Below are positions 1 to 13,484 of a stretch of DNA of 26,516 nucleotides, one piece after another. The DNA comes from a virus, in the IMG/VR virus record IMGVR_UViG_3300023119_000101, positions 1 through 26,516 of that record; one strand, given 5' to 3'. The notes beneath the pieces were generated by a model that worked only from the letters and a program-made list of their open reading frames with translations, made no database searches and was not told the DNA's origin. A program made the translations under genes and the position numbers. Each line of letters opens with the position of its first letter. Position 1 is the stretch's first letter.

Positions 1-681
1 TTGGTATTTTGCGTCAGGCTTTTTGAGCTCTGCTGTATCTTTACCTTTACGGTCTTTGGCCTGGTGGCTTTCTTTTTTATTAGTCTTTGCATCTACAAAT
101 CTTCCAGTTTTCTTTGCTATAAATTTTTCGCAACCGTGTGCATTTGCAATAACTTTTGCGGCTTCGACTTGATGTTGATTATGTTCAAATATTAAAAAGT
201 CCCAACGTGCTCTGCCGCCGGCGGCAGTAAATGCTTTCATATTGCGACTTACATTGTCCCATACAACACCTTGCCTGTATATGTGATTAGTGTCCCTAAG
301 GCCGTCCACGCTGAAAATAACAGCACCCATTCTACCAAAGACTTGGGCCAGTTCACACCACCATGCTTCATTTTTTGCTCCTCCATTTGTATTCATGCTT
401 AACCATATGTTAGGGTTATGCTCTCTAAAGTATTTGAATATTTCTAATGTATCTCGTGCAACAATAGGATCACCCAAGTTGCCACACATATACATTGTGT
501 TTAACTGTGATATAAATTCAGGTGTGAAGATACTTTTACAGTCGTCAAGTGTTAATTCATCTAGATTAATGTGTGGATTAACTCCTTCTCCGTTACAATT
601 TCTATCACACATAGGGCAGGCAGCCTGACAGTTCTGTGTAACTTCTAAGTGGATTGTTTTTATATCTTCTAATTTATACAT
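1..681 (-). CDS. Radical SAM protein, C-terminus cut by window edge
   Basis: The frame is open from an ATG at 681 to the window edge, giving 227 residues with no stop, so the C-terminus lies outside. The radical SAM signature CX3CX2C is at Cys18, Cys22 and Cys25 and would bind the 4Fe-4S cluster that cleaves S-adenosylmethionine. The usual GGEP loop is represented by CGNLGDP (residues 66-72). The motifs MNTNGG and SVDGL follow in the places expected for the half-barrel. A lysine-rich stretch near the visible end may link to a C-terminal SPASM or twitch domain that cannot be seen. The start overlaps the stop of the 74-residue gene by 8 bases. No strong Shine-Dalgarno is visible, so translation is probably coupled. 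The enzyme class is clear and the substrate unknown. Confidence 0.9.
   Translation of the reverse strand, partial: MYKLEDIKTIHLEVTQNCQAACPMCDRNCNGEGVNPHINLDELTLDDCKSIFTPEFISQLNTMYMCGNLGDPIVARDTLEIFKYFREHNPNIWLSMNTNGGAKNEAWWCELAQVFGRMGAVIFSVDGLRDTNHIYRQGVVWDNVSRNMKAFTAAGGRARWDFLIFEHNQHQVEAAKVIANAHGCEKFIAKKTGRFVDAKTNKKESHQAKDRKGKDTAELKKPDAKYQ
212..227. repeat. Perfect 16-base GC-rich palindrome inside a coding region
   Basis: CTGCCGCCGGCGGCAG is identical to its reverse complement and stands out in AT-rich DNA. It lies inside the partial radical SAM gene, where it encodes part of an Ala/Gly-rich stretch. It may be a chance result of GCC and GGC codons. No function is assigned. Confidence 0.5.
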
Positions 682-898
682 CGTGTACCAATTTAACTTC
701 TGCACCTGGGCCTGCTTTGCTAGGCAAGTCTCCGTACTGTTGTACATACCATCTAATAACAGCCTTGTACCAGTTTTCGCTATTATGATGTGCTTGCTTA
801 TTAAACTGCCAAATATTATTATTAGTTGCTTGCATTGTACTTAATGCTCTAGCACTTTCTTTTTGTAGCTGTCTAAGTGTTAAACTATCTAAGTCCAT
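674..898 (-). CDS. Small hypothetical protein (74 aa) in the accessory operon
   Basis: I do not recognise this 74-residue protein. It looks soluble and mostly helical, with no signal peptide or membrane segment, an aromatic-rich centre (NWYKAVIRWYVQQYG) and a flexible-looking C-terminus containing SKAGPGAEVKL. It overlaps the SGNH gene upstream by 10 bases and the radical SAM gene downstream by 8, which supports a real gene with coupled translation. Its position directly before a radical SAM gene allows the guess that it is that enzyme's partner or peptide substrate. It lacks the repeated Cys, Gly-Gly cleavage site or core repeats that would mark a typical RiPP precursor, so this is only a possibility. 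Confidence 0.7.
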   Translation of the reverse strand: MDLDSLTLRQLQKESARALSTMQATNNNIWQFNKQAHHNSENWYKAVIRWYVQQYGDLPSKAGPGAEVKLVHDV

Positions 899-1677
899 AA
901 CTTTTCTTTTAGCCTCTCTGCAAGTTCTATATGATCTTTTATAGGCATATGTCCTGTACTTGAAAATCTTGGCTTATCAAAATGATCACAAATGTCTTTG
1001 CCGCCAAGTGTATCAATCATTTTATCTCTAATTAAATTAGTCATAGATTCATACTCTTTACCTGCTTCGTTAAAATGCTTATCGTTAAGTAATGGATTAC
1101 CTACAAAATAAAGATCAATATTCAAAGTGTCTGCCAGTTTTATAAGGCCGATTAGTTGATTGGCCATTATCATATGTAAGTCTGTCCAGTTAGCGTTTAA
1201 CACAAACCAATCAGATATAATTTTTTCTTCTTTTGTTTTAAATCCGCCAGTTCTATTTAAGATAAGAGTGTTGTTTGGATTTTTTGGATTAGGAAACCAC
1301 AACCTGCCAGCATTAGTAAGTCCAATTAATGCCAAAACTTTCTTATCTTGAAATCCTAAATTAATAAAATCTTTATAAGCATTTAAACAAATATTTGTTA
1401 TACCATTTCCGCTAATAGCACTATTAATTACTTTTGTATTTGTAATCTTTCCTAGTTGTGCAGGATATGATAGTTCTAATTCTAACGGTGATATATAATC
1501 GTTTAGAGTGGTATTCTTTTTTTCTAAAAACTTTACTGTAGATTTTTCAACTTTTTTAATGTTATCAATCCAACCACTAAAAGTTTGTAGAGGATAATTC
1601 GGTCCTAGATATAACTTATCTACTAAATCTCTTCCGGAAGTAAAGCTATCGCCGTTTGCATATATTAAATCATACAT
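889..1677 (-). CDS. SGNH/GDSL-family hydrolase-like protein
   Basis: The 262-residue protein starts with a beta strand running into NGDSFTSG (Ser11), which is SGNH block I with the nucleophilic serine. A block II-like SGNG follows at 89-92 and a block III-like GLTNAGR at 119-125. The C-terminal GHMPIKDH (His243, His249) followed by an amphipathic helix matches block V. The Asp normally three residues before the catalytic His is absent. Family members are esterases, lipases or carbohydrate acyl-transferases/deacetylases, so removing or adding an acyl group on a glycan is plausible. I chose the ATG at 1677 because GAGGA lies 6 bases before it; the TTG at 1683 would leave no spacing. It overlaps the methyltransferase gene by 8 bases and is a distant paralogue of the SGNH gene at 5464-6264. 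Confidence 0.8.
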   Translation of the reverse strand: MYDLIYANGDSFTSGRDLVDKLYLGPNYPLQTFSGWIDNIKKVEKSTVKFLEKKNTTLNDYISPLELELSYPAQLGKITNTKVINSAISGNGITNICLNAYKDFINLGFQDKKVLALIGLTNAGRLWFPNPKNPNNTLILNRTGGFKTKEEKIISDWFVLNANWTDLHMIMANQLIGLIKLADTLNIDLYFVGNPLLNDKHFNEAGKEYESMTNLIRDKMIDTLGGKDICDHFDKPRFSSTGHMPIKDHIELAERLKEKLWT

Positions 1678-2437
1678 AACCAATCCTCATAAATCTTGTA
1701 TACTTATCTAATGGTAATTCTCCTGTAAATAATACTTTACTTAATGGTGTCATTTGTTCAAAATGTAAAATATCTTTTGCACAATTTACATGATCTTCTA
1801 CTTCAAAATAGTTATTACTTTGTAGTAAAACTAGTTTTCCTTTAGGTATTTTTGTAAACCATTTATCAAATTCTTTTATATGTTCACAACTTGTATTGAT
1901 AATAGTGTCAGGAACATCAGTAATAGGATAGCTCATTCTATTATTTTTATTTGACCAATAAGTCCACTTATGTTCACTATAATCAATGTCCATAATATTT
2001 TGTGTTAGTGCTTTAAATTTCCACTCTTGTTGATACCAAGGAAAATTAAATGTTTCTGCAACTTTTACAACAGAATCGTCGATATCAAAACTTCTAATTT
2101 TATCTACATTCATTTCGCTTTCAAACAATAATGTAGCAAGTGTTCCATACCATCCCGCACATAAAAATACAGTGCCTAAATCGTTAGTAACTTTTTCTAA
2201 TTCTCTAACTGCCCATAACTTACTTTCAAGTTGTCCTCTACTAAAGCAGTCTTTGTTAAAACTTTCATCGTCTTTATATTTTCGTAAACCTTCGACAAGT
2301 TGACTGTCTGTAAACTTTTGTACAAGTCTAAATAATGCATACTTGTCGTCATTAAGAACTAGTTTACGTAGATCAGTATAAAAGGAATTTGTAGGATATA
2401 ATATTTCTAGCCTATCAAGTAGTTCATGTATTTCCAT
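1670..2437 (-). CDS. Class I SAM-dependent methyltransferase-like protein
   Basis: The 255-residue protein has a helical N-terminus (about 1-85) followed by a Rossmann-like core. Motif I is VFLCAGWYGTLA (90-101), with the strand and Gly-rich turn that bind SAM. The acidic motif II is IRSFDIDDS (114-122), where the Asp would hold the ribose. PDTIINTSCEHI (176-187) fits motif IV and its following helix, and a strand KLVLLQSNN follows. There is no DPPY or Pro-Cys motif, so it is not a typical DNA methyltransferase. A sugar, small molecule or protein is the likelier substrate, which is inference from its glycosyltransferase and radical SAM neighbours. The ATG at 2437 is preferred to the adjacent TTG at 2440 because AAGGAG lies 7 bases before it. 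It overlaps the preceding gene by 14 bases. Confidence 0.75.
   Translation of the reverse strand: MEIHELLDRLEILYPTNSFYTDLRKLVLNDDKYALFRLVQKFTDSQLVEGLRKYKDDESFNKDCFSRGQLESKLWAVRELEKVTNDLGTVFLCAGWYGTLATLLFESEMNVDKIRSFDIDDSVVKVAETFNFPWYQQEWKFKALTQNIMDIDYSEHKWTYWSNKNNRMSYPITDVPDTIINTSCEHIKEFDKWFTKIPKGKLVLLQSNNYFEVEDHVNCAKDILHFEQMTPLSKVLFTGELPLDKYTRFMRIGYV
1684..1688 (-). promoter_or_regulatory. Ribosome binding site deciding the SGNH start
   Basis: GAGGA lies 6 bases before the ATG at 1677. It abuts the in-frame TTG at 1683 directly, which excludes that codon as the start. Confidence 0.65.
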
Positions 2438-3728
2438 CAAACTGCTCCTTTAACCAATCAAAGTCATTAATTTTGCGTAATGCATCTGCATTGCCTTTAT
2501 TAGCAGTACCGTATTCTGTGCCTGCTTTGGCTCCTGCAATGGCATACTCTCCGTAAGGACGATCTGCACCTTCTGAACACCATATGTTTAGCCGCTCATC
2601 TGTTTCTGCATCATTTTGTCTAGCAATAGTTTTACTTGATAACTTAGCACATTCTCTAAACGCACTTTTCCAAGTTTCAAAAGGTGCTGTGTTAAATGCA
2701 CTCAAATTACTAACTTGATTAATTGCTTTAAATTTATTACTAATACTTGTAGTCATATCAGTTGAATTTACATCCATGTCAAGCACTTGTTGTCTTGGTA
2801 GTAGTTTTACACCACCGTATCCATAAACTAAATCATTAATAGGATTTTTACTTCTAAAAACATGAACTCCATCAGCATTCCATGCTTCGACTTGATAATC
2901 AAAATTAAAATCATCCATAATTAATGCATCGCCGTCTACTACATAAAACAAATCTGTTTTGCAAAGTTTAGCCGCTTCTTTGTGTGCATTGTGAATACCT
3001 TTTACTCCATGCACACGTTGAGCTCTTGGAAAACGTTTTAGCAGTTTTTCATAGTTATCATCCGCATTAGGTTCTTGGTAACTAATAAACACAATATCAT
3101 ATACAGGAACTTTCGGAACACTTGCTTGAATATCAACTTCTTTCTTTTTAACGAAAAATCTATTGTCTACTTCTCGCTGACTTAGTGTTTCTCCTGTATA
3201 GAACAAACAAATACCATCATGGTAATCACCATTTTTAAAAATATGTGTGAACTGATCATAGTAAGGAACATGGTAATCAAAATCAAATGTTGGTGTTACA
3301 TCTGGCCACACTGCATAGAAAAAATCTGTCTTGCTATTTTTAATTGCGTCCAAGTAATCTTGATACGTAGCAACTTCAAACTTGTTATAAGGGGTTTGTT
3401 TTGATGCAACAATTTCTATTTCTTTTCTGTTAATCCAGAATCTGTGACTTTCTTCTCGTTTGTTTACTGCATACGTTTTAGGCAGTAATACAAGTCCGTC
3501 ATAATATTCTCCATTTAAAAATAAATGTGCTTTGTCTTGACTGTATTCGTCAACCTTATAACTAAAATCATAGTCAACTGTTATTCCATCAAAAATGATA
3601 TAAACAAAATTAGTCAAAGAAATACTTTGTGCTTCTATTATACTCGAAGCACGTTTCATAATAGGATAGCGTTTTTTATGTATTCGATAGTTTTTAGGAT
3701 TTTTACCTACATAAACAATATCATACAT
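2424..3728 (-). CDS. Triple-repeat glycosyltransferase-like protein (GT-A type)
   Basis: The 434-residue protein carries three related segments (about 2-109, 111-203 and 209-330) and a C-terminal helical region. The third segment is clearly homologous to the N-terminus of the 307-residue protein at 8991-9914. Both have YDI, a SYxEPNA motif, RVHGV, an AHK helix and VDGD (here Asp265 and Asp267), then YGxGGxK. VDGD fits the metal- and nucleotide-sugar-binding DxD of GT-A glycosyltransferases. The first two segments keep the surrounding pattern but not the DxD: they read FDGI at 46-49 and WPDV at 141-144. They may be non-catalytic binding modules. The ATG at 3728 has GGAG 7 bases upstream and overlaps the radical SAM/SPASM gene by 8 bases. 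Transfer of a sugar is likely; donor and acceptor are unknown. Confidence 0.7.
   Translation of the reverse strand: MYDIVYVGKNPKNYRIHKKRYPIMKRASSIIEAQSISLTNFVYIIFDGITVDYDFSYKVDEYSQDKAHLFLNGEYYDGLVLLPKTYAVNKREESHRFWINRKEIEIVASKQTPYNKFEVATYQDYLDAIKNSKTDFFYAVWPDVTPTFDFDYHVPYYDQFTHIFKNGDYHDGICLFYTGETLSQREVDNRFFVKKKEVDIQASVPKVPVYDIVFISYQEPNADDNYEKLLKRFPRAQRVHGVKGIHNAHKEAAKLCKTDLFYVVDGDALIMDDFNFDYQVEAWNADGVHVFRSKNPINDLVYGYGGVKLLPRQQVLDMDVNSTDMTTSISNKFKAINQVSNLSAFNTAPFETWKSAFRECAKLSSKTIARQNDAETDERLNIWCSEGADRPYGEYAIAGAKAGTEYGTANKGNADALRKINDFDWLKEQFDGNT
2445..2450 (-). promoter_or_regulatory. Ribosome binding site deciding the methyltransferase start
   Basis: AAGGAG lies 7 bases before the ATG at 2437, inside the end of the upstream glycosyltransferase-like gene. 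It supports the ATG over the TTG at 2440. Confidence 0.65.
2739..3725 (-). repeat. Three tandem protein repeats within the glycosyltransferase-like gene
   Basis: The coded repeats lie at about 3402-3725, 3120-3398 and 2739-3104. Repeats 1 and 2 share Tyr-rich strands, an xFxNGxYxDG turn (LFLNGEYYDG and IFKNGDYHDG) and a closing I/KKEVxIxAS-like strand (KEIEIVAS and KEVDIQAS). Repeat 3 keeps the fold pattern and alone has the intact DGD. Boundaries are approximate. Confidence 0.65.
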
Positions 3729-4692
3729 TCATGTACTCCTTTAAACTAAAGTTTGTTCCTAACATATAATCTGTGCTTGCATTGGGATCATTTGACCAAA
3801 CTAATACCTCTGGATCTTCATACAAGAAGTCGCAGTTTTTACAATAAGGTATGCTATCAAAGTCTTCCATTTCATGTGCCTTACGAAGTTTATTATATTC
3901 GTCGCCATACCAAATATCTTCTATTGTTTGATTTTGCGTATGCCCTAATACACTGAGGCTTTCATTAGGTGGTCCCATAGTTTGACAACAAGGTGTTACT
4001 GCACCTGTAAGTCCGCCATTACCTCCGCTACGAATAGTAATTTCCGGAGCAAAAGGACGGCCGCAAGTTCTGCGTGTGCTAGGATCTCTTTTATAATTAG
4101 GATCGTAATTACCGCTCCAGTTGTGCATCTTCCAAACGTAACCTATAATTCCTAGTGCGTCAATAAAGTTTTTCCTATACAAATATAGCTCATAGTCAAC
4201 CGCACTATTATCTAATATTAAATGATAACTGCTCAAAATGCAAGAACTTTTTGTCTTTTCTATGTAATCTTTTGTATTCATAATAACGCCTTTTAGATGA
4301 TCAAAGTTATCTGTTTTCATCCATTTAGCGTACTGTTCTTTGTCATAGCCAATACAACTAAAACGTATAAAATCAATGCCAGCATCAATTACTTGCTTCA
4401 TAAAATCGCCAACTAGAAAACTGCCATTTGTATACATGAAAGTTTTAAATCCACGTTTTTTGCAGGCTTCAATATACTTAGGTAAATCTTTTGCCATTGT
4501 TGGCTCGCCACTACCTTCAAGATTGATTACAGGCTTACCTGGTAGTTGATCAAGAATTTTTTCGAATTGCTCAAGAGGCATTTTGCGTGTCCATTCTTTT
4601 CCACGACCGGTAGTTTGAGGACACATATCACAAGTGTAATTACATCCACCAAACACTTCTACAACAGCTCTTTCTAAATTAGGCAATTTCAA
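3721..4692 (-). CDS. Radical SAM enzyme with SPASM domain
   Basis: The 323-residue protein has CNYTCDMC at Cys17, Cys21 and Cys24, an EGSGEP loop (59-64) and TNG (88-90), all radical SAM core motifs. A C-terminal SPASM-like domain follows, with Cys210, Cys235-Cys236, Cys284 and Cys287, plus the characteristic IEDIWYGDEYNKLR helix. SPASM domains hold auxiliary iron-sulfur clusters in enzymes that modify peptides, proteins or sugars. Closely similar cores occur in peptide maturases and in sugar-modifying dehydratase or epimerase families, so the substrate is open. The start is a TTG at 4692: a stop lies two codons upstream, the next Met lies inside the cluster motif, and AAGGA sits 8 bases before the TTG. 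It overlaps the upstream gene by 14 bases. Confidence 0.9.
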   Translation of the reverse strand: MKLPNLERAVVEVFGGCNYTCDMCPQTTGRGKEWTRKMPLEQFEKILDQLPGKPVINLEGSGEPTMAKDLPKYIEACKKRGFKTFMYTNGSFLVGDFMKQVIDAGIDFIRFSCIGYDKEQYAKWMKTDNFDHLKGVIMNTKDYIEKTKSSCILSSYHLILDNSAVDYELYLYRKNFIDALGIIGYVWKMHNWSGNYDPNYKRDPSTRRTCGRPFAPEITIRSGGNGGLTGAVTPCCQTMGPPNESLSVLGHTQNQTIEDIWYGDEYNKLRKAHEMEDFDSIPYCKNCDFLYEDPEVLVWSNDPNASTDYMLGTNFSLKEYMNV

Positions 4693-5467
4693 TTTTTATA
4701 TCCTTGTCTAAGTATGTAGTTGTTAGATATGGTGCAAGCAAGTATGCTTTTAACACACCTCTTAAATTTTTTGCATAAGCAAACACTGTGTTTTCTCCAG
4801 TATCCCAATCAACATATTCTTTTGTAATAGTATCAAAGTTATGGTTTAAACTTGTGTTCATCCAAAACTTTTTAACTTCAAAGAAAATATTTTCTGTACT
4901 AGTATTCATAGCAGTTTGTTCAAAATGAACATGCGGTATAAGAGATCCATGATCTGCTGTTAACATCATTACGATTTCTTTGTACTTATAGTAATCATGT
5001 AACTCGGTTTTGTTGTTAAAAATACGTTTCCATTTTACTTTTTTGCCACCAGTATTAAATGCAAGGCATTCAATTTCATCTGGTCCAAACAAGTCTAATA
5101 CTTTATTTCTAGATCCGCCCGGATGAATAAACCATTTTGCTGTATCTGCATTGCCTCTTGACACCCAGTGAGCACCTACAGGATTTTGCATTTTTCCATC
5201 ACGCAGAAAGTCTCTAGTTAACCAAACACACTTAATATATGACTCTGCGTTTTGTGCCCAACTAGTCCAGCTTTGCTCTTTAAAGTACTCTGGATAATGA
5301 TGTACACCTGTTTCAAAAAATCTTTTAATATCTTTAATTAACTGTAGGGTGTCAAACTTAATATCTTTTTTTGGTATGTCCAACAAACCTAAATGTTCTT
5401 CAGCATGTTTAAACTTATAGAATAAGTTCCAGTGTTCCTTTGGCATTGGTAGTGTTTTATAAATCAT
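4679..5467 (-). CDS. Hypothetical protein with IHPGGSR motif, possibly ParB-like fold
   Basis: I do not recognise the family of this 262-residue protein. It has a helical Trp/Tyr-rich N-terminal half. A central block, NPVGAHWVS then WFIHPGGSRNKVLDLFG (roughly 95-128), resembles the pattern of ParB/sulfiredoxin-like proteins, where a conserved H/G/R turn leads into a helix and then a short hydrophobic strand (here EIECLAFN). Such domains can bind nucleotides and hydrolyse them or transfer phosphate, so a nucleotide-dependent role in the pathway is conceivable. That is a guess from one motif. The C-terminal half contains LTADHGSLIPHVHFEQ with several His residues that might bind metal. The start overlaps the stop of the SGNH gene as ATGA, and AGAGGAAG lies about 13 bases upstream. 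Confidence 0.75.
   Translation of the reverse strand: MIYKTLPMPKEHWNLFYKFKHAEEHLGLLDIPKKDIKFDTLQLIKDIKRFFETGVHHYPEYFKEQSWTSWAQNAESYIKCVWLTRDFLRDGKMQNPVGAHWVSRGNADTAKWFIHPGGSRNKVLDLFGPDEIECLAFNTGGKKVKWKRIFNNKTELHDYYKYKEIVMMLTADHGSLIPHVHFEQTAMNTSTENIFFEVKKFWMNTSLNHNFDTITKEYVDWDTGENTVFAYAKNLRGVLKAYLLAPYLTTTYLDKDIKIEIA
4701..4705 (-). promoter_or_regulatory. Ribosome binding site for a TTG start
   Basis: AAGGA lies 8 bases before the TTG at 4692. An in-frame TAA two codons upstream rules out any longer form. Confidence 0.6.
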
Positions 5468-6264
5468 AATAATTTTTTAACTTCCTCTGCAAAAATTTTA
5501 TGAGCTTCAAGGTTGAAATGCCCTCCTGGCATTTTTGACATAGGAGGAGCAATCAAAGACATATTAAGTTTTATGTCGAGGTGTTTTTTAAGTTCGTTTA
5601 TCATAGGAACACGCTCATCTTCTTTGTACCAATTATTAATATGTGTTAAACTCCAGTTCCATAAACAACTATCAAGCAAATATAATTTTATTTTGTTTGC
5701 TCTACAGTATCCAATAAGTCCTTGTATACTGTTCCACGAGTGGTAAAACAAATCTACAGTGTTATGATGCAGATACCAATATTCAGTAACTGCATAATCA
5801 GGACCTTTGCCTTGTGTAAGTGTATGACTGTAGAGCTGTTTAAACGGTTCTTCGTAGTTATTTTGAGTATGCGAACTAGGATGAGCATAACGATCACAAC
5901 TAGTTAACATTACTATTGCTGTAAGATTCTTACTTCCTTTTAACTTTTCTAGTTTATAAATTGTACGTAAACAAATTTCTTGATTACTTAATCCACCATT
6001 AGATATATTATAAACAGTATTTTTCTTATTATTTAAATATGCCGGCCATGCCATACTTTTTTCTAATTCATAGTATTCAAATCTTTTGTCTCTAGGTAAC
6101 GCTTCTACACAATCTTTAAACTTCCTATCCAGTTTTTGAAGATACGGAGGTATTTCTGTGGTATTATCTATACAGTTTTGCGTATACCCAGGAATTAAAT
6201 TGTCAGCCGCCAGTTCTACACCTGCTGTAAAACTATCTCCAGCACAAACTATTGTTCTTCCCAT
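5464..6264 (-). CDS. SGNH/GDSL-family hydrolase-like protein
   Basis: The 266-residue protein has block I CAGDSFTAG (Ser11), block II SNGGLSN (88-94), a block III-like TSCDR (121-125) and block V GGHFNLEAH (His249 and His255) before a C-terminal helix. The acidic residue usually three before the catalytic His is replaced by Pro. No signal peptide is visible, so it would act in the infected cell or be carried on the particle by another route. Activity on an acyl group of a carbohydrate or lipid is the family expectation; acyl transfer in either direction is possible. AGGAG lies 10 bases before the ATG. It overlaps the radical SAM gene upstream by 16 bases and the IHPGGSR gene downstream by 4. 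Confidence 0.8.
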   Translation of the reverse strand: MGRTIVCAGDSFTAGVELAADNLIPGYTQNCIDNTTEIPPYLQKLDRKFKDCVEALPRDKRFEYYELEKSMAWPAYLNNKKNTVYNISNGGLSNQEICLRTIYKLEKLKGSKNLTAIVMLTSCDRYAHPSSHTQNNYEEPFKQLYSHTLTQGKGPDYAVTEYWYLHHNTVDLFYHSWNSIQGLIGYCRANKIKLYLLDSCLWNWSLTHINNWYKEDERVPMINELKKHLDIKLNMSLIAPPMSKMPGGHFNLEAHKIFAEEVKKLL

Positions 6265-7607
6265 GAGTCATGTACTCCTTTACAATATTCATAGAAATCT
6301 GCATACTGTGGAAATGTCTTAAGCAAGTTTGTTCCTAGTCTTTTATCATTTTCTGTAAAGAAACTATAAAAGTCTCGTTGTCCGTTTTTAATTTTCTGTG
6401 GGTCTACAGGATTTTGATACATATAATCTCGTACACGTTGCATTTTAGCAACTTCTACATCTGTAAAATAATCGCTATTTGCTTCCATATACTTTAAATG
6501 CTCGTCCATATAGAATTTAAAACTATCAGGTAAAATGTTTAGCATCCAATGAGGCGGTTCTTTTAAGTAAGGCGTATCAAATCCAATTGCATCTTTGCCA
6601 TACTGTTTACGCCATTCAATTACTTTGGCCAGGAAATTGTCAAATGTAGCAACACACAGCACGTTAAAAGTACACATAATGTTTACTTTGAATCCACGTT
6701 CAATTGCTTGTTTAAAATTGCGTTCCCAATGATCGCATTTTAAACCTGTACGCATATACTCTGCTTGTTCTCCCCAACCTTCAATTGATGTAAACAAACT
6801 AAACTTACGAATTTTCTTTTGTTCTAATAAACTTTCAATCCTATCATACAGTCTATCAATCTTGTTCGTTGTTACGCCAAGATTACTGTTTAAACTTATT
6901 TCTAGTTGCGGTGCAGGTTCTTTCTCGAGCAAATCAAAAAACTGCATAGCACCCGGATTCATTAAAGGCTCACCACCTGTAATTCTTAGTGTATGCAAAT
7001 CTTTACGTAGGTCGGGCCACCATTTCCAAAATGCTTCAATATACGGATTTTCATCTTTAGGTGCATAGTAACGTCCGTTGTCTAAGAATTCAATACCATA
7101 TTGATTATATGTTAGATCATAATTACCATGTTTTTTGATTTCATCCATCCACAGTGTGCTTGCTTGTGGGCAACAGTAACCGCAACGATAGTTACATCCG
7201 TTGCCAAAACTAACTTCAAGATACTTTGGATTTACATTTTCAAGATAATTTAGTTTTGCTAGATTTTCAATTTCTGATTCTGCCCAGTCACTCGAACTAT
7301 GAATCATTCTGTCTGAAATTTGATCGCCTTCAAGATCTTCAATGTTCCAACAATAATAACATTCTTCTGGACGGCCTCCTTCGAGCATTGTCTTACGTTG
7401 TTGCTTCTTCCAACTTGTATTGTGCAATGCACTAGGATCTGCTTTAATTTCATTAAGAGGAATATGCTGAGGTCTTGGATGATAACAACTGTGATTATCG
7501 CCCGTGTGTAAGTATAATGTTTCATGCAACCATTTCATTGCACAAAATCCTACACCAACTTTGTTTAATCTATCACGTACTTCTTTAATTTTATTAACTT
7601 GCGTCAT
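6249..7607 (-). CDS. Radical SAM enzyme with N-terminal twitch-like cysteine domain (copy 2)
   Basis: The 452-residue protein has two Cys sets. The N-terminal one (Cys22, Cys41, Cys83, Cys86) includes HSCYHPRPQHIPL and ECYYCWNIED and looks like a twitch-type domain for an auxiliary iron-sulfur cluster, placed before the core instead of after it. The radical SAM motif CNYRCGYC is at Cys138, Cys142 and Cys145, with GGEPLMNP at 211-218. A conserved C-terminal block (RLGTNLLKTFPQ) matches RRGTDFLNTFPE in the adjacent copy, and the two proteins are collinear throughout. It belongs, from memory, to the phage-associated twitch radical SAM group, whose substrate I do not know. AGGA lies 8 bases before the ATG, and the gene overlaps its upstream copy by 14 bases. 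Confidence 0.9.
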   Translation of the reverse strand: MTQVNKIKEVRDRLNKVGVGFCAMKWLHETLYLHTGDNHSCYHPRPQHIPLNEIKADPSALHNTSWKKQQRKTMLEGGRPEECYYCWNIEDLEGDQISDRMIHSSSDWAESEIENLAKLNYLENVNPKYLEVSFGNGCNYRCGYCCPQASTLWMDEIKKHGNYDLTYNQYGIEFLDNGRYYAPKDENPYIEAFWKWWPDLRKDLHTLRITGGEPLMNPGAMQFFDLLEKEPAPQLEISLNSNLGVTTNKIDRLYDRIESLLEQKKIRKFSLFTSIEGWGEQAEYMRTGLKCDHWERNFKQAIERGFKVNIMCTFNVLCVATFDNFLAKVIEWRKQYGKDAIGFDTPYLKEPPHWMLNILPDSFKFYMDEHLKYMEANSDYFTDVEVAKMQRVRDYMYQNPVDPQKIKNGQRDFYSFFTENDKRLGTNLLKTFPQYADFYEYCKGVHDSWEEQ

Positions 7608-8994
7608 TCCAAAAGTCCTTTAGCTCGGGAAAAGTATTTAAAAAATCTGTTCCTCTGCGAGCATCATGCTGAGAGAAAAACAACTTAAAATTTTTCTCTG
7701 CTAATTGTTTGTTAAAATTTGTGTCTGCTGTAATCCATTGTATAAGTCTTTTAACTTTACTGATTTCAAAATCACTAAATCCTTGAAATTCGTTGCCGTC
7801 GCCGTCTTTGTTTGCTTCCATAAATTCTACACAACGTTCTAGTTCTGTAACGTGTTCAGGCATAAGTTTAGGATTTAAATAATCTGGATTTGTAAGTTGT
7901 GGAATATCAAACCAAATCATTTGTCTGCTTGTACTATATTGCTTACGTAACTGTAATATATTTTGTAAGTATTCGTAAATGCCAAAGTAACTTAGTGTAT
8001 TAAAAGTAATAATAAAAGTTAAACTGTGTCTGTCGCATTGTTCCAAATACTGCTTTACATTTTTTAACAATGTATCAAATTCTAACCCGTTGCGAATGTA
8101 TTCTGCTTGTTTACCCCAACTGTCTAAACTTGCAAACAACATAAAATGATCTACACAAGGAGCAACATCCTGCATTGCATCGATAAACTTTTGCCATTGA
8201 CCTTTAGGCGGACAACAGTTACTTGTAATACTTAAATGCAAATCTTCTTTTGGATTATTTTTTACATAGTCAAAAATCTTAAATGTGTTTTTATCCATTA
8301 AAGGCTCTCCGCCTGTCATACGAAAAGTTTGTAGTGTAGGATAAATTTCAGGAAACCATTTCCAAAATGCTTCAACATAAGGATTGTCCGGGCTGTTGTT
8401 TACCGGCTCCATATATTGCATGTCATTGTGTTTTCTATCAGCAAGCATATACGGTCCTTGCTTATCAATTTCTTTCATCCATTCTGTGCTAAGAACAGGT
8501 GAACAATAAGAACACTTAAAATTACATGCCTGATTAAAATTTACTTCTACATAGCGTGGGCGAGCATTGCCGTCAATGCCTAACTGCTTTGCTTCTTCAA
8601 TAAGTCCTGGTTCAAATACGTCTTTACTTCTGTATGCTCTGTCACTAAGTTGATTGCCGCTATCTTCAATCTGCCAACAAAAATCGCATTCAGGCGGACG
8701 TATACCGTTTAACATTAGTCCACGTTGTTGCTTTTTATGTTCTGTGTTGTGCAACGCACTAGGATTGTCTTCTAATTCTTTTAGAGGAATATGATGGCTT
8801 TTAGGATGATAACAACTGTGTGTTTTTCCTGTGGGGATATGTATGCTTACATTAAACCATTTAGCCAAACAGAAACTAGGACTGACTTTGTTAAGTTCTT
8901 CAAATACATACTCCGCATCGTGCATGTATCTAGATTCAAACTTGCCGTCAATCTTACGTAGTTCATTTCCTTTTATATTTCTATTATACTTCAT
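7594..8994 (-). CDS. Radical SAM enzyme with N-terminal twitch-like cysteine domain (copy 1)
   Basis: The 466-residue protein is a clear tandem paralogue of the next gene. It has the N-terminal Cys set Cys42, Cys61, Cys103 and Cys106 (HSCYHPKSHHIPL and ECDFCWQIED). The core motif CNFKCSYC is at Cys157, Cys161 and Cys164, and GGEPLMDK is at 228-235. Its N-terminus is about 20 residues longer than that of the copy. Both retain all visible cluster-binding cysteines, so neither looks like a decayed duplicate, and they may act on different substrates or as a heterodimer. The ATG overlaps the stop of the upstream glycosyltransferase as ATGA. A role in making an unusual sugar or modifying a protein is inferred from its neighbours only. 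Confidence 0.9.
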   Translation of the reverse strand: MKYNRNIKGNELRKIDGKFESRYMHDAEYVFEELNKVSPSFCLAKWFNVSIHIPTGKTHSCYHPKSHHIPLKELEDNPSALHNTEHKKQQRGLMLNGIRPPECDFCWQIEDSGNQLSDRAYRSKDVFEPGLIEEAKQLGIDGNARPRYVEVNFNQACNFKCSYCSPVLSTEWMKEIDKQGPYMLADRKHNDMQYMEPVNNSPDNPYVEAFWKWFPEIYPTLQTFRMTGGEPLMDKNTFKIFDYVKNNPKEDLHLSITSNCCPPKGQWQKFIDAMQDVAPCVDHFMLFASLDSWGKQAEYIRNGLEFDTLLKNVKQYLEQCDRHSLTFIITFNTLSYFGIYEYLQNILQLRKQYSTSRQMIWFDIPQLTNPDYLNPKLMPEHVTELERCVEFMEANKDGDGNEFQGFSDFEISKVKRLIQWITADTNFNKQLAEKNFKLFFSQHDARRGTDFLNTFPELKDFWNDAS

Positions 8995-9914
8995 TCAGGA
9001 TCTATTACAAACTGCTCTGTGCTGTTTCTACTTGGGTTTTTATATACTGTCTTAAAAAATTTGCTTTGATTAGGTAATAGTGGGTTAGCATCAATTGGAA
9101 TTTCTAACTCATTAATTAAGTCATTGCCTAATCGCTGTATGTGGAACAATAACTCAGATCCTTTGTCTTTTTCATTTTCCCACATATTGTTTAGATATGT
9201 AAAATCACGAACGTTAATGTAATCCCAATCTGTACACATTGTCATATAAAGCCCTTGTCTTGCTCCGTAGATTGCCCATAAGCCGTTTTCTACATCTGCA
9301 CCCACCATTAACCAAATCCAAAGCCTGTGTAAATTTTTCCAATGTCCGTTTAAAAAGTCTTGCTTACTTGGCTTGACGCCTTGATCAAGTGCCATCTTAA
9401 CGCCTTCACGGAAGCCAGCTCTCCATGCTTGGTGTGGAGTTTCGTTATTATGCACAAGACTATAACAACTGTTTTGCTGAATGTATTTTAAATCCCAACA
9501 AAAGTCTACTTGTGCATGTGGATTGTCTGGATCGGCATTTTCGTGTGTACGCATATTAAGTACATAATCTTTAGGCCAGCATTTAAGGCCGCCATTGCCA
9601 TACATAAGTCCGTTGATTGCATTTTGTCCACACCAACTAATAACACAATTTTCTAATTCTGCATTTTCATCAAAGTCTAATTCTTGTTGTAAGAAATCCG
9701 CTGATACAGTATTATCACCATCGACTGTGATAAAGCGAGGAGTTTCACTTAGTTCTGCACAGGCTTTGTGTGCCGCATCTGATCCTTCCACACCGTGTAC
9801 TCGTTTTGCCCAAGGAACTTTTGTAAGTAAATCTGCATAATTCTTTTCTGCATTGGGCTCGTCGTATGACAAGTAGATAATGTCATAGTCAATAATTTTT
9901 ACCTTTTGTGTCAT
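8991..9914 (-). CDS. Glycosyltransferase-like protein (VDGD motif, GT-A type)
   Basis: The 307-residue protein opens with YDIIYLSYDEPNAEKNY (about 10-26), followed by RVHGVEG and an AHKAC helix. VDGD (Asp65, Asp67) is the likely metal and nucleotide-sugar site, and YGNGGLKCWP (105-114) the likely acceptor loop. The order and spacing match the third repeat of the protein at 2424-3728, so the two form one family in this cassette. The C-terminal part is helical and Trp-rich, including HQAWRAGFREGVK, which corresponds to ETWKSAFREC in the relative. I would call it a family-2-like or related glycosyltransferase, but no closer assignment is possible by eye. Both ends overlap neighbours by 4 bases as ATGA, indicating coupled translation. 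Confidence 0.75.
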   Translation of the reverse strand: MTQKVKIIDYDIIYLSYDEPNAEKNYADLLTKVPWAKRVHGVEGSDAAHKACAELSETPRFITVDGDNTVSADFLQQELDFDENAELENCVISWCGQNAINGLMYGNGGLKCWPKDYVLNMRTHENADPDNPHAQVDFCWDLKYIQQNSCYSLVHNNETPHQAWRAGFREGVKMALDQGVKPSKQDFLNGHWKNLHRLWIWLMVGADVENGLWAIYGARQGLYMTMCTDWDYINVRDFTYLNNMWENEKDKGSELLFHIQRLGNDLINELEIPIDANPLLPNQSKFFKTVYKNPSRNSTEQFVIDPE

Positions 9915-10447
9915 TTAATTTCCTCGATAACGTACTTGTCGAAAGATCCTTTAGTGTATATACTATACTCATTTGGTCTAAAAGTAAACCTAACTTGCTT
10001 AGGTTTGGTAAAATTAACCTTAATTAAGTCTAACAAATAGTGAGGATTATCTTTTTTAGTAATACTAAACGAAAAATCTTGATCTAAAAGTGTTTTATCT
10101 TTGAGTTTTTCAAGCAACTGAGGATTTAGATTAAACACAATTATGTTTTTATTATATTTTACTGTTGCTTTTATATCGTAGTCCTCGTTTAGCTCTCTAA
10201 ACTTATGAATAGAGTCATATACAACCGTTTCTTCTTTTCGATTGACTAACTTAAAATTTTTAACTTTTGTGTCATATACAACTTTATATACATCTTTGTT
10301 TTCCTTAAAAGAAAGTATAGGCTCTACTTGATCAAATTTAACCTCGATATAGTCAGTACCGTCCTCAAAACTAGGTCCAACACTTATAATGTCACCGGTC
10401 ATTCTTTCAAATGTAACATACTGCGGTGGTGTAAAGTCAACCTGCAT
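9911..10447 (-). CDS. Hypothetical beta-rich protein (178 aa)
   Basis: I do not recognise this 178-residue protein. It alternates charged and hydrophobic residues in short strands (YIEVKFDQV, VYKVVYDTK, FSFSITKKD, QVRFTFRPN) and has no Cys, signal peptide or membrane segment. This suggests a small all-beta fold, such as an Ig-like or fibre-associated domain. The opening phrase TFERMTGDIISVGP resembles the start of small structural proteins in marine myophages, from memory and unchecked. It lies between glycosyltransferase genes, overlapping the upstream one by 11 bases and the downstream one by 4. A carrier or acceptor for the glycan is one idea; there is no direct evidence. Confidence 0.75.
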   Translation of the reverse strand: MQVDFTPPQYVTFERMTGDIISVGPSFEDGTDYIEVKFDQVEPILSFKENKDVYKVVYDTKVKNFKLVNRKEETVVYDSIHKFRELNEDYDIKATVKYNKNIIVFNLNPQLLEKLKDKTLLDQDFSFSITKKDNPHYLLDLIKVNFTKPKQVRFTFRPNEYSIYTKGSFDKYVIEEIK

Positions 10448-11261
10448 AAGATACCTCTAATTTTTTAATCATTTCATCTGTAAGAAAATCGTTTTCTGTA
10501 TAGTGAACAACTTCTCTTTGTTTATAATTGCCAAAGAATAAATCTCCGTCATAGTAACTAGGTATTTTTTCTTGCCAACTAAATGTTTCTTCTGACCAGC
10601 CTTGTATTTTTGGCTTCATATGAACAAATCTTGGAAAGTCTTTTGTTTTATTTGTAACTTGATCTTCAATTCCTAATAACTTAACTGCGATTGCCGCAGT
10701 TCTATCCATACTAGGTTCTTTAGGATACTTTTTAGGAGAATATTTTCCATAAAATAACTCCCAATTATTATTAATCAATTCTACCATTTTATAAAATTCT
10801 AATGCTATATCAGATTTTTTAAAATAATGAAACGCCATATAGATGTCCGGCAGGTCATTTACATAAAACATTTCTCTGTAATAGTTATATTTTACAGGAG
10901 TGCCTCTGTAAGTATTAATATGGCTAGTAAAATATAATTCATACTTGGCTAGATAGTCCCACCAATGGCTTATATCAGTGCAAAAGAACATATCACTGTC
11001 AAGAACAACTGTTTCTTCATATGGTGATACATGATATAACTTCCATCTATGCTCTGTAGCAAACCTATCAGTAGCAGTATCTTCCAACCAGGGTGTTTCA
11101 ATTACCTCATCAAACACTTCTCGATAGTAATTAGGAATAGGCGTATGTGTTACCAAAGAAACATTGTTTATTTTTTGTGTTTTTTTGATGCTCAAGGCAC
11201 ATACATATGCTTGTTTTACATAATCTAAACCTTGTGCAAAAATTAAATAGCCTTTACTCAT
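10437..11261 (-). CDS. Glycosyltransferase-like protein with DSD motif (GT8-like)
   Basis: The 274-residue protein begins with a Rossmann-like strand (GYLIFAQGLDYVKQA). After HRWKLYHVSPYEETVVL comes DSD (Asp88, Asp90), the DxD that coordinates metal and the diphosphate of the sugar donor. This arrangement, with the start of the chain holding the nucleotide and the DxD near residue 90, resembles GT8-like nucleotide-sugar transferases. It is a tandem paralogue of the preceding 285-residue protein: both start MSKG, share xxHRxxxYxxSPYxET before the DxD, and keep a two-strand region after it. It overlaps that gene by 8 bases. No membrane segment is seen, so it acts in the cytoplasm. Donor and acceptor are unknown. 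Confidence 0.8.
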   Translation of the reverse strand: MSKGYLIFAQGLDYVKQAYVCALSIKKTQKINNVSLVTHTPIPNYYREVFDEVIETPWLEDTATDRFATEHRWKLYHVSPYEETVVLDSDMFFCTDISHWWDYLAKYELYFTSHINTYRGTPVKYNYYREMFYVNDLPDIYMAFHYFKKSDIALEFYKMVELINNNWELFYGKYSPKKYPKEPSMDRTAAIAVKLLGIEDQVTNKTKDFPRFVHMKPKIQGWSEETFSWQEKIPSYYDGDLFFGNYKQREVVHYTENDFLTDEMIKKLEVSYAG

Positions 11262-12111
11262 TTGCTAACGCCTTATTAATTGTATCATTAAGTTCGTACT
11301 TGTTCATAATATGTACATCTAAATCTTTTACTGTCAAACAAGTGTACTGTCCGTGATACCCTTTCTTTTCAATCATTAATTCTATTTTGTTATCCTGAAC
11401 TTTAAGAGGAATATCTCTATCAAGAGTGTAATACATCTTGGTTGGCAAATCTTTAACAAAATCGCCTGAAGAAAATCCGTTTAAAATATGTGCGGCAATA
11501 GCAAAAGCATGATCGTTCCTAAAAGTTACAGTACCAACGTTGAAAGTCATTGCATAATGGTCATAATTTTCTTCAACATGTCTAAGTGTATCAAAGAACA
11601 GTTTAGCTTTTCTTGATTTTTTAAAATAAACTGCTGTTGCCCAATAAAAGTCAATACCACTATCATTAATATAATTAAATTCTCTAGTATTTCTCCATCT
11701 TGCCAAGTCAGTAGCATGTCTATTAAACATTAGGCTTTGCTTTGCATTGAAACATTTAAGTAACTGCTTGCTATTAATAATGTAATCTGTATCTAGCAGG
11801 ATTGTTTCGTTGTATGGCGATAGTTCGTAAGCCATTGATCTATGTTTATTATTAAATGGCAAGCTATTCCAATGGAATGGTCCATTATAGTAACGCTTCC
11901 ATGTTGCAGATTTACTTTTTTCTACAGAAATAATTTGATCAAACATATCCTTTTCCTTAGGATATGCTTCTTCAATGTATTCTGATTCGCTAGTGATAAG
12001 AGTTACAGGCAATCTAAGAAATTGCTCGGAACGTTTTGCTAAAAAAATTGCTTGCTTCACATAATCAATCTGAGGATTGTTAAATGCAAAGCATATAATA
12101 CCCTTTGACAT
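11254..12111 (-). CDS. Glycosyltransferase-like protein with DTD motif (GT8-like)
   Basis: The 285-residue protein starts MSKGIICFAFNN, has KHRSMAYELSPYNETILL before DTD (Asp107, Asp109), and continues with strands typical of the GT-A fold. It is the upstream member of a tandem pair with the 274-residue protein and keeps the DxD, so both copies look active. The C-terminal part (GYHGQYTCLTVKDLDVHIMNK) is a short strand-rich extension with a conserved-looking His near the end, which often completes the metal site in GT8-type enzymes. Its start codon shares one base with the stop of the small gene before it (TAATG), so translation is probably coupled. Likely cytoplasmic; specificity unknown. Confidence 0.8.
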   Translation of the reverse strand: MSKGIICFAFNNPQIDYVKQAIFLAKRSEQFLRLPVTLITSESEYIEEAYPKEKDMFDQIISVEKSKSATWKRYYNGPFHWNSLPFNNKHRSMAYELSPYNETILLDTDYIINSKQLLKCFNAKQSLMFNRHATDLARWRNTREFNYINDSGIDFYWATAVYFKKSRKAKLFFDTLRHVEENYDHYAMTFNVGTVTFRNDHAFAIAAHILNGFSSGDFVKDLPTKMYYTLDRDIPLKVQDNKIELMIEKKGYHGQYTCLTVKDLDVHIMNKYELNDTINKALANE

Positions 12112-12455
12112 TAATCTAGTAGTCCTGAAACTGATCTGTTTTTAATTAGTTGCGAATATTCTGTATGATATTTGTTAGAGGCACTAAAGTAAACATTTGT
12201 AACCTCTGTCAAAAACTTTTCTAAGTTCTTAATTTCAAACGGAGTACCGTTGTCATCTGTTAAAACTGCTGAAGTTTGTTTTGATTGCACTAAAAAGTTA
12301 ACAAAATTTACAAGATCTTTTGTGGCTGTAAATTTGCCGCCTTGTGTATAAAACACAAGTTCGTCTTGATATCTATCTTTTAGTACTTGTTTCTGATTTT
12401 GAAGTGTGATATTGTAATTTGAAAAATCTATTGCCTGTTTTAGTCTATCGTCCAT
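12111..12455 (-). CDS. Small conserved-looking phage protein, first gene after the sigma-70 promoter
   Basis: This 114-residue acidic/polar protein (MDDRLKQAIDFSNYN at the start) has a helical N-terminus, a short strand around FYTQGGKFTAT, and the C-terminal RSVSGLLD. From memory it resembles a small protein found near structural genes in T4-like cyanophages, function unknown; I could not check this. AGGAG lies 6 bases before the ATG (12462-12466), and the exact-consensus promoter ends about 26 bases upstream, so this is the first cistron of the accessory operon. It has no Cys, signal peptide or membrane segment. Because it precedes the glycosyltransferases in the transcript, it could be a structural leftover from the block to its right or a true part of the cassette. 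Confidence 0.8.
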   Translation of the reverse strand: MDDRLKQAIDFSNYNITLQNQKQVLKDRYQDELVFYTQGGKFTATKDLVNFVNFLVQSKQTSAVLTDDNGTPFEIKNLEKFLTEVTNVYFSASNKYHTEYSQLIKNRSVSGLLD

Positions 12456-12521: not shown

Positions 12522-13448
12522 TTATGAAAGGTTTCTTGCATTAGCAAACACAGGCTTATTAACATTAACACTGTTTACGTTATTTGGTCTATTACATTGC
12601 ACTGTGCTTGTTGTTCTCGGCGTTACTGCTTCGTCGAAGTTTGGATTTGGACCTTTGTCGTCGTTGAAATAAATTCTAAAACGTAGTACAGGTCCGTCGG
12701 TTGCATCTTCTTTTGCCTGAATTGTAAAATCGTTATCGGCATAAGAGCTTGCAGTTTTTGTAAAAATAGTTTGATACGATGTAGTTAAATCAGTATGTCC
12801 AATAACTGTGCCTTCTGATCCATTGCTTGTAGCAGAATGACCAAATCTTACTAGTCCAACATTAGTAAGTAAGTTTCTCCAGTCAGTATCAATTGCACCG
12901 CCTCCTGAAGCAAGACTTCCACTAAACACAATTTCGCCGCCAGCATTAAAAAATGCACGTCTATGATCACTTGCTGTCATATTAGTTGTAGTGCCGTCAC
13001 CATTAGTAACGTTGTATGCTTGGAAAGTTACAGTAACTTCATGATAAATTGTGCCGTTCCAGTCTGTGTCTGTAAAGGACGAAACACCCGTTTCAACACC
13101 AGACTGTCCTGTAGCAATATTTAAACGGTCGGAAACAACGTCTAAGCTCAGTGCTTCAAACTCTGCCATACCTTTTTTAGTAGTAGGATTAGAATCTTCA
13201 ATTAAGTCGCCAACTGCCATATCAGCAATTTCGCTAGGCAAAGAACCTGTCTGGTGTACCCTTGCTTTCTTAATATCTTCAAACAGCCTTGACATATGAT
13301 CTGCTTCGACTGTTGCATTTGCTGAAACTTGGAAACTTGATAGTGCCTGCCCGTATCCTTCGTCGCCTGCACCTTTACCCATTACACCGTTAATTCTTGC
13401 TTGTAACTGGTTGTAACGAGCCGCTGTAATTGTATCGCCTACTGCCAT
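12522..13448 (-). CDS. Tail-fibre-like virion protein (308 aa)
   Basis: The 308-residue protein opens with MAVGDTITAARYNQL and contains GVMGKGAGDEGYGQ (22-35). I know this head from T4-like cyanophage structural proteins, where a short helical domain precedes a beta-rich shaft. The middle and C-terminus are rich in Thr, Ser, Gly and Asn with alternating strands (YHEVTVTFQAYN, GGEIVFSG, TIQAKEDA, VLRFRIYF), as expected of a fibre or adhesin domain. A late-promoter motif lies 28 bases before its ATG, consistent with late expression. It is the last virion gene before the sigma-70 promoter. It could be a fibre, a fibre-attachment or a baseplate-associated protein; the exact position in the particle cannot be told. 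Confidence 0.8.
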   Translation of the reverse strand: MAVGDTITAARYNQLQARINGVMGKGAGDEGYGQALSSFQVSANATVEADHMSRLFEDIKKARVHQTGSLPSEIADMAVGDLIEDSNPTTKKGMAEFEALSLDVVSDRLNIATGQSGVETGVSSFTDTDWNGTIYHEVTVTFQAYNVTNGDGTTTNMTASDHRRAFFNAGGEIVFSGSLASGGGAIDTDWRNLLTNVGLVRFGHSATSNGSEGTVIGHTDLTTSYQTIFTKTASSYADNDFTIQAKEDATDGPVLRFRIYFNDDKGPNPNFDEAVTPRTTSTVQCNRPNNVNSVNVNKPVFANARNLS

Positions 13449-13476: not shown

Positions 13477-13484
13477 TATTTATA
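13477..13484 (-). promoter_or_regulatory. T4-type late promoter motif TATAAATA
   Basis: TATAAATA on the minus strand, 28 bases before the ATG at 13448, matches the T4 late consensus and the NATAAATA form described for cyanophages. It overlaps the stop codon (13480-13482) of the preceding fibre gene. Confidence 0.7.

Follow-up and report, generated by a model that had tools for sequence, protein, structure and literature searches.

Glycosyltransferase and radical SAM genes beside T4-like fibre genes are already known from phages. In the host recognition cluster of pelagimyophages and cyanomyophages, fibres, GT8 enzymes and radical SAM cassettes lie downstream of a giant VrlC gene, in an island that the available text of the study terms non-syntenic (PMC7029224). 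Jumbo phages carry clusters, read as capsular polysaccharide modification systems, that combine several glycosyltransferases with sugar-nucleotide enzymes, and the word 'radical' does not appear in the main text describing them (PMC7824862). Moraphages, themselves aquatic jumbo phages, have four widely shared core glycosyltransferase groups, 'Radical SAM' again being absent from the main text (PMC12619734). Finally, glycosyltransferases of mycobacteriophages act on virion proteins, the targets being capsid and tail tube, and the accessible account of that system contains no mention of radical SAM enzymes (Freeman 2023, cited in PMC12619734). Here, we analyse a block of fifteen genes, including glycosyltransferase, radical SAM, SGNH hydrolase-like and methyltransferase-like genes, that lies beside the tail-fibre genes in a 26,516-nucleotide stretch of viral DNA (positions 1 to 26,516 of IMG/VR record IMGVR_UViG_3300023119_000101). 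The whole stretch, hereafter the window, is a 26.5-kb virus record.

Like the jumbo-phage clusters, the block groups several glycosyltransferases, but unlike them it has no recognisable sugar-nucleotide enzymes. In contrast to the pelagimyophage island, its glycosyltransferase core is nearly fixed in order, and the nearest deposited relatives listed for two proteins of this phage (the gp6-like protein and v5, see below) are jumbo phages of the RaK2, PA5oct, SCTP-2 and Atu_ph07 kind. The original prediction, made from the letters of the window, regarded so many radical SAM genes and transferases in one phage operon as undescribed; the available text on the pelagimyophage cluster, with its fibres, GT8 and radical SAM cassettes, takes part of that novelty away (PMC7029224). 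What appears new in the literature found is the near-invariant core, a separate exchangeable radical SAM layer, gene fusions, a link to Bdellovibrionota, the small protein g14 and a parallel system in cultured phages. Among open papers, no description of a conserved core of glycosyltransferase and N-twitch genes in jumbo phages was found, nor one dealing with what the N-twitch family does or with its arrays in Bdellovibrionota. We lean tentatively, at somewhat less than an even chance, towards soluble glycosyltransferases that glycosylate the adjacent fibre proteins and distal enzymes that tailor the product.

A near-constant glycosyltransferase core

The block spans positions 1 to 12,455, where fifteen minus-strand open reading frames (ORFs) overlap at all 14 junctions, bearing out the gapless arrangement first noticed. 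The overlaps measure 1 to 17 nucleotides (nt) at 13 junctions and 74 nt between g14 and g15 as called; homologues of g15 begin 22 codons later, which would leave about 8 nt. Genes are named from g01, ending at 12455, to g15, which is incomplete, being cut at base 1 and running past the window end; the fibre side runs from v1 (12522) to v6 (26515).

Three scans of viral contigs, anchored on g07, g05 and v5, had pools of 217, at least 598 and at least 551 relatives, respectively, and the best 80 loci were kept from each. Since one locus (L045) is common to two scans, 239 loci are distinct; several contigs recur, and counts over loci include near-identical contigs. A repeated gene order was apparent in the first scan (g07-anchored, best 80 of 217 relatives), and the other two were added to make the result independent of g07, while the profiles used to count core and radical SAM genes are our own and were trained on that first locus set. 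Upstream counts refer to the 68 of 80 g05-anchored loci with more than 3.6 kb of upstream sequence, downstream counts to the 55 of 80 with at least 6 kb downstream, and v5-anchored counts to the 56 of 80 with at least 9 kb downstream. The genes of the core are as follows.

12522..13448, minus strand: v1, fibre-region protein tied to the core (model with a predicted local distance difference test score, pLDDT, of 93.0)
12111..12455, minus strand: g01, 114-aa core protein of unknown function
11254..12111, minus strand: g02, GT8-like glycosyltransferase (weak; glycogenin profile match, E 0.06)
10437..11261, minus strand: g03, GT8-like glycosyltransferase (glycogenin-1 profile match, E 6.9e-6)
9911..10447, minus strand: g04, 178-aa core protein of unknown function (weak T4_Y03C and phrog_21175 matches)
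8991..9914, minus strand: g05, GT-A glycosyltransferase with a DGD motif, homologous to the C-terminal domain of g11
2424..3728, minus strand: g11, GT-A glycosyltransferase behind degenerate glycosyltransferase-like modules (AlphaFold2 pLDDT 93.6, pTM 0.77)

Upstream of g05, both g02 and g03 were found in all 68 loci, and g01, g04 and v1 in 67 each. Seen from the other side, 47 of the 56 v5-anchored loci contain g02, g03 or g05; four of the remaining nine spend the stretch on extra fibre genes, three stop at or just beyond v1 or g01, and two (L242, L243) are without a cassette. Downstream of g05, at least one radical SAM gene occurs in 47 of 55 loci, at least two in 32 and at least three in 26, and eight have none. 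These eight all retain g11, which is present in 40 of the 55, and no ORF of at least 60 aa with a CxxxCxxC motif was found in them. As the glycosyltransferase core thus stands without radical SAM genes in 8 of 55 loci, it represents the minimal unit. The near-constant unit is v1-g01-g02-g03-g04-g05, usually with g11, while the radical SAM, SGNH-like and methyltransferase-like genes are exchangeable, and this distal content differs strongly between loci. Gene order recurs beyond chance in most loci read. Conservation of the whole block across related phages had been proposed as support for a pathway: it holds for the first five or six genes, which are nearly invariant, and not for the block. 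Conversely, the scattered or single occurrence named as counting against a pathway is seen in a large part of the distal half but does not apply to the core.

The core is also connected by fusion. Six ORFs of related contigs encode g05 and g11 as one protein, and g05, g11 and g12 are joined in single ORFs of 890 to 1103 aa at L179:7998-11174, L181:8004-11315 and L200:7983-10655; the fusion search returned no case of g05, g11 or g12 fused to a radical SAM protein. Independent of gene order, the fusions tie g12 to the pair of GT-A enzymes, and at the level of sequence they support a joint action of g05, g11 and g12. Of the single pathway originally proposed, the operon-like block beside the fibre genes and these fusions remain, whereas a fifteen-gene unit does not, as the distal genes vary. 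It could be argued that only the glycosyltransferase core serves the fibres and that the distal genes are unrelated cargo in a recombination hotspot. The strongly different distal content would fit such cargo, and so would two TauD-family dioxygenases and a fatty acid desaturase farther out in one related phage (L090:1687-4611). Yet the same families recur, as the 47 of 55 g05-anchored loci with at least one radical SAM gene illustrate, the order g12-g14-g15 is largely kept, and three loci have g12 joined to g05-g11 in one protein, making unrelated cargo very improbable in our judgement.

Four glycosyltransferase-like proteins had been predicted, and support for them differs in strength, being found for g03, g11 and g05 and weakly for g02. 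The match of g03 to glycogenin extends over about 100 residues, which places it with GT8. The predicted fold of g11 is GT-A, its model matching GT-A enzymes (Foldseek, VIA) such as B4GALNT1 (Z 11.9, 138 residues, root-mean-square deviation 2.7), although IspD nucleotidyltransferases have the same fold (Z about 10-11); structure matches also include the Che8 glycosyltransferase (E 8.6e-5). The length of g11 ranges from about 220 aa for a catalytic domain only (L013, 221 aa) to 875 aa (L083:5961-8588), the differences coming from degenerate glycosyltransferase-like modules in front. Such modules are suggested by the repeated secondary-structure pattern of the model, the length variation and reading by eye; BLAST detected no internal repeats in g11. 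Among deposited phages, neither g03 nor g11 had a match at E 1e-3. For g01, Pfam and PHROG gave no match, and one weak NCBIfam match was judged chance.

Radical SAM enzymes and the other distal genes

Downstream of g05, the block contains four radical SAM proteins, two of which belong to the N-twitch family N_Twi_rSAM (NF033640, curated cut-off 170 bits).

7594..8994, minus strand: g06, N-twitch radical SAM protein (NF033640, 328 bits)
6249..7607, minus strand: g07, N-twitch radical SAM protein (NF033640, 308 bits; 217 relatives)
3721..4692, minus strand: g10, radical SAM/SPASM protein (Radical_SAM 2e-15, SPASM 1.5e-9)
1..747, minus strand: g15, radical SAM protein cut by the window end (Radical_SAM 3e-6)

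The predicted number of four was upheld, with g06, g07 and g10 over their cut-offs and g15 just below that of Pfam (28.0 against 29.5, on a truncated sequence). The closest homologues of g15 are about 355 aa long and have further C-terminal cysteines. Both g10 and g15 fall outside N_Twi_rSAM, at 22.9 and 48.9 bits, as does a full-length relative of g15 at 41.3. In 28 aligned sequences, the CxxxCxxC cysteines C138, C142 and C145 as well as the additional N-terminal C22, C41, C83 and C86 (g07 numbering) are invariant. All 16 long related records contain N-twitch genes, from 2 to 11 per record, with one record reaching 11; these records were picked by g07, itself an N-twitch protein, so that their presence is partly by construction and only the numbers are informative. 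The only matches of g07 among deposited phages are in Vibrio phages K566 and K567 (24%), and K566 has four annotated radical SAM genes within about 17 kb (L087:3761-21128).

The remaining distal genes are listed below.

5464..6264, minus strand: g08, SGNH-like hydrolase by motif only (GDSFTAG and GGLSNQEI blocks)
4679..5467, minus strand: g09, 262-aa unknown accessory protein (5 ORFs across phage loci, including the longer contig of the window)
1670..2440, minus strand: g12, putative class I methyltransferase by motif only (sequence alignment)
889..1683, minus strand: g13, SGNH-like hydrolase by motif only (NGDSFTSG block)
674..898, minus strand: g14, 74-aa protein, candidate substrate or partner of g15

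Two SGNH hydrolases and one methyltransferase had been proposed, and the motifs are there: GDS, GGxSN and H motifs in g08 and g13, and in g12 motifs that we take to resemble those of a class I methyltransferase. Profile searches add little, as the only PDB profile match for the SGNH-like proteins is a weak one to a GDSL protein (E 0.23), while g12 had no match in Pfam, NCBIfam or PDB and one weak PHROG match of unknown function. Family searches gave no meaningful match for g09.

Among nine genes compared, g14 is the most conserved, with a median pairwise identity of 0.76 over 26 loci, followed by g15 (0.69), g05 (0.68), g11 (0.63), an N-twitch gene (0.61) and g12 (0.51), and g02 (0.45), g03 (0.43) and v1 (0.36) are lowest. 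In all 28 loci that contain it, g14 either directly follows g12 or is separated from it by a single gene. Within two genes downstream of g14, 20 of these loci have a g15-like radical SAM gene, and one has it after three; five loci end first, and two (L152, L153) have unlabelled ORFs downstream. No family match was found for g14, and its PDB matches (designed repeat proteins with E values as low as 1e-7, then antibody chains and others at weaker scores) were judged spurious. Two roles are conceivable for g14, peptide substrate and enzyme partner. If it is a substrate, the part from g11 to g15 might turn g14, or alternatively a metabolite of the host, into a natural product separate from the virion, in line with the conservation of g14, with its position ahead of g15-like genes and with the clustering of N-twitch arrays on bacterial chromosomes described below. 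However, taken as a candidate precursor of a ribosomally synthesised and post-translationally modified peptide (RiPP), g14 has no recognisable core, be it Cys-rich or repetitive; it could equally be an enzyme subunit, and it occurs in only 22 of the 80 g05-anchored loci, many of them cut short. In addition, g14 was not found in 16 Bdellovibrionota genomes, in a search that had no positive control. A peptide or small-molecule pathway of this kind therefore seems improbable to us.

Relatives of the distal enzymes are found in cells as well. Searching bacterial and archaeal genomes with g05 yielded 26 loci. Ten of them, one being L101 from a Bdellovibrionales bin, show the phage order around v1 and g01-g03; seven are further records of Bdellovibrionota, and three more are L097, L105 and L119. 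Six Roseobacter-type or Roseibium genomes (L108, L110, L111, L112, L115, L116) have a lone g05-like gene of 37-41% identity and no cassette. Bdellovibrionota contigs group varying subsets of g05, g11, g12, g15 and N-twitch relatives, a likeness to the phage block, from which they differ in being chromosomal and in showing none of v1, g01-g04 and g14 at the loci examined; in L104, by our own reading, such a group lies beside MoxR-like and SppA-like genes. In the phylum of a Halobacteriovoraceae metagenome-assembled genome (MAG), N_Twi_rSAM passes its cut-off in 40 of 144 genomes, against 0 of 14 controls. Each of the first six genomes examined has 2 to 20 matches, and one has 13 within about 30 kb. 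N-twitch arrays with unknown proteins were observed on Bdellovibrionota chromosomes in L120-L121 (G018:C1:745-775 kb) and L123-L124, and genes for a GT2 enzyme and a QueC-like protein are among those that lie close to such arrays.

Phage and Bdellovibrionota N-twitch proteins share up to 63% identity and interleave in a tree, with 46 single-label clades among 147 tips. The tree (FastTree, midpoint-rooted, supports not inspected) holds 147 of 392 sequences after thinning, bacteria of other phyla lying outside the sample. The 40 of 144 genomes above the cut-off and the interleaved tree rule out radical SAM arrays as a phage-only feature.

Fibre genes and identity of the phage

Five virion genes had been placed next to the block, and six are found: v1, given above, and the following five.

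13480..14961, minus strand: v2, tail fibre protein (phrog_19602, 3.1e-15)
14997..16790, minus strand: v3, fibre or virion structural protein (phrog_14394, phrog_6002)
16790..18808, minus strand: v4, collar-domain tail fibre (PF07484, 2.3e-15)
18808..19419, minus strand: v5, jumbo-phage virion-region protein (60 matching phage records)
19442..26515, minus strand: v6, part of a 4925-aa giant baseplate-region protein (full length in L088)

A contig of 44,775 bases is protein-identical to the window across the overlap, except for g09 (99%), and continues upstream with the 4925-aa protein and then a series of baseplate-type genes, the smaller of which were named by our own reading. By its position, we take v6 to be of the VrlC type, and it also matches Synechococcus phages. 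The giant gene and gp6 lie upstream of the block, which would correspond to the VrlC side of a T4-superfamily host recognition cluster, a cluster positioned between VrlC and gp14. The N-terminal half of the gp6-like protein shows 41-44% identity to 25 records listed of 64 matched, and those listed are all at least 284 kb and comprise phages of the SCTP-2 and PA5oct types, Vibrio phage 2.275.O, Atu_ph07, RaK2-like phages and others. Similarly, 38 of 40 listed phage records matching v5 (60 in total) are at least 310 kb. As the relatives of gp6 and v5 are large phages, and judging from sequence, the window most likely comes from an aquatic jumbo phage of the T4 superfamily that has RaK2, PA5oct, SCTP-2 and Atu_ph07 among its relatives. 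A T4-type gp23 was seen in 2 of 16 related records, which are incomplete, and Vibrio phage 2.275.O has no cassette after v5.

Some related contigs have been binned with bacteria. L094 (PBPT01000016.1, 335 kb) and L099, which bear the fibre operon, are in a Neomarinimicrobiota MAG and are probably jumbo phage within that bin. L101 (JABGUH010000022.1, 140 kb), bearing the phage core, is in a Bdellovibrionales MAG, a weak hint of a host.

Possible fibre modification or envelope remodelling, and cultured relatives

Of the three roles originally offered, namely decoration of the fibres, remodelling of the host envelope and synthesis of a modified small molecule, fibre decoration is in our view the best reading. 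The glycosyltransferases adjoin structural genes, as in a virion glycosylation system. No protein of the block attains a hydropathy of 1.8 over 19 residues, which leaves no membrane-like segment, and that value is reached in 0 of 247 homologues from eight families. From the missing membrane segments, the strand shared with the fibres and the unit of v1 with glycosyltransferases, we infer a cytoplasmic glycosylation of v1 or another fibre. The block would be the distal half of a tail-fibre operon, its likeliest job being to modify the virion's own fibres before assembly. In this model, four glycosyltransferases would build a glycan in the host cytoplasm on a co-expressed fibre protein, for which v1 would be the likeliest candidate, while g01 and g04 may be structural or adaptor parts. 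The exchangeable distal enzymes might then oxidise, epimerise, methylate or de-acylate this glycan, or a virion peptide, and the tailoring may give each phage its own surface. The product could tune receptor binding or shield the fibres. A C-terminal repeat of v1 as the modified substrate was discarded, as no Cys/His repeat occurs in the v1 C-termini compared.

Two cultured phages use the same slot in a different way. After v5 and a fibre, Phosso (L085:22650-30799) and Atu_ph07 (L086:23424-31073) encode hypothetical proteins and several radical SAM proteins along with a cupin-like one. Among the radical SAM proteins, the first resembles the peptide maturases PapB, DynA and HxsB, below their cut-offs, and its gene precedes one for a protein of about 300 aa with CHxSCHASCHxSRSRR in its last 18 residues. 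These residues are 15/18 identical between the two phages, against about 42% identity overall. In Atu_ph07 (MF403008) this protein is coding sequence (CDS) 170, counting annotated genes from the start, a count that reproduces gp4, gp5, gp70, gp125, gp132, gp141 and gp181 of the paper. According to the available text, mass spectrometry placed most virion proteins of Atu_ph07 in CDS 31-76, 170-215 and 284-329 (PMC6102473), the second of which begins with CDS 170.

Several points weigh against fibre modification and its parallel in the cultured phages. No modified virion protein was seen, the best Z of 6.8 in a fold search gives v1 no convincing solved relative, and the radical SAM counts depend on our own profiles. 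All three virion clusters of Atu_ph07 comprise exactly 46 CDS; stretches of fixed size may thus have set their limits, and CDS 170 itself possibly went undetected. Similarity of the Phosso and Atu_ph07 radical SAM proteins to g06 is weak (best E 1.7e-5), and direct homology of the cassettes was discarded: the slot is common, the cassette is not the same. Relatives of the distal enzymes stand near ordinary GT2 genes on Bdellovibrionota chromosomes, with no virion involved, and the GT8 clusters of pelagimyophages are read by their authors, in the text available, as acting on the host O-chain (PMC7029224).

The last two points favour instead that the enzymes alter host lipopolysaccharide (LPS) or capsule, blocking superinfection or masking receptors, their place beside the fibres reflecting receptor selection. 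This is also what the accessible text proposes for the GT8-rich host recognition clusters of pelagimyophages (PMC7029224) and for glycosyltransferase clusters of jumbo phages, chiefly cyanophages (PMC7824862). It is because published authors favour it for similar islands that envelope remodelling is still a serious rival, and g03 and, weakly, g02 are GT8-like here too. Against it, synteny links the core almost without exception to v1, g01 and g04 where the fibre genes end, and the block proteins have neither a membrane-like segment nor a Pfam match to export or lipid-carrier families, a weak argument as soluble LPS-core enzymes would pass as well. We therefore consider envelope remodelling rather unlikely, if a contender, and retain fibre glycosylation as our preferred reading.

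A bolder proposal, which we hold with considerable doubt, is that the N-twitch arrays form an undescribed pathway that giant aquatic phages have in common with the predatory Bdellovibrionota. Coupled in the phages to the glycosyltransferase core and g14, it would put a sugar or peptide modification of a new, radical-derived type on the tail fibres. In the cultured Rhizobiales jumbo phages, this slot would then hold an independent radical SAM system that matures the CHxSCHASCHxSRSRR-tailed virion protein, and radical SAM virion maturation would have more than one origin.

The position of the core at the end of the fibre operon in a widespread group of aquatic jumbo phages suggests surface modification to be a regular feature of the group. 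A related case is open to direct testing in the two cultured phages. Should virion proteins turn out to be what the radical SAM enzymes work on, this superfamily would have an unusual kind of substrate in phage particles.

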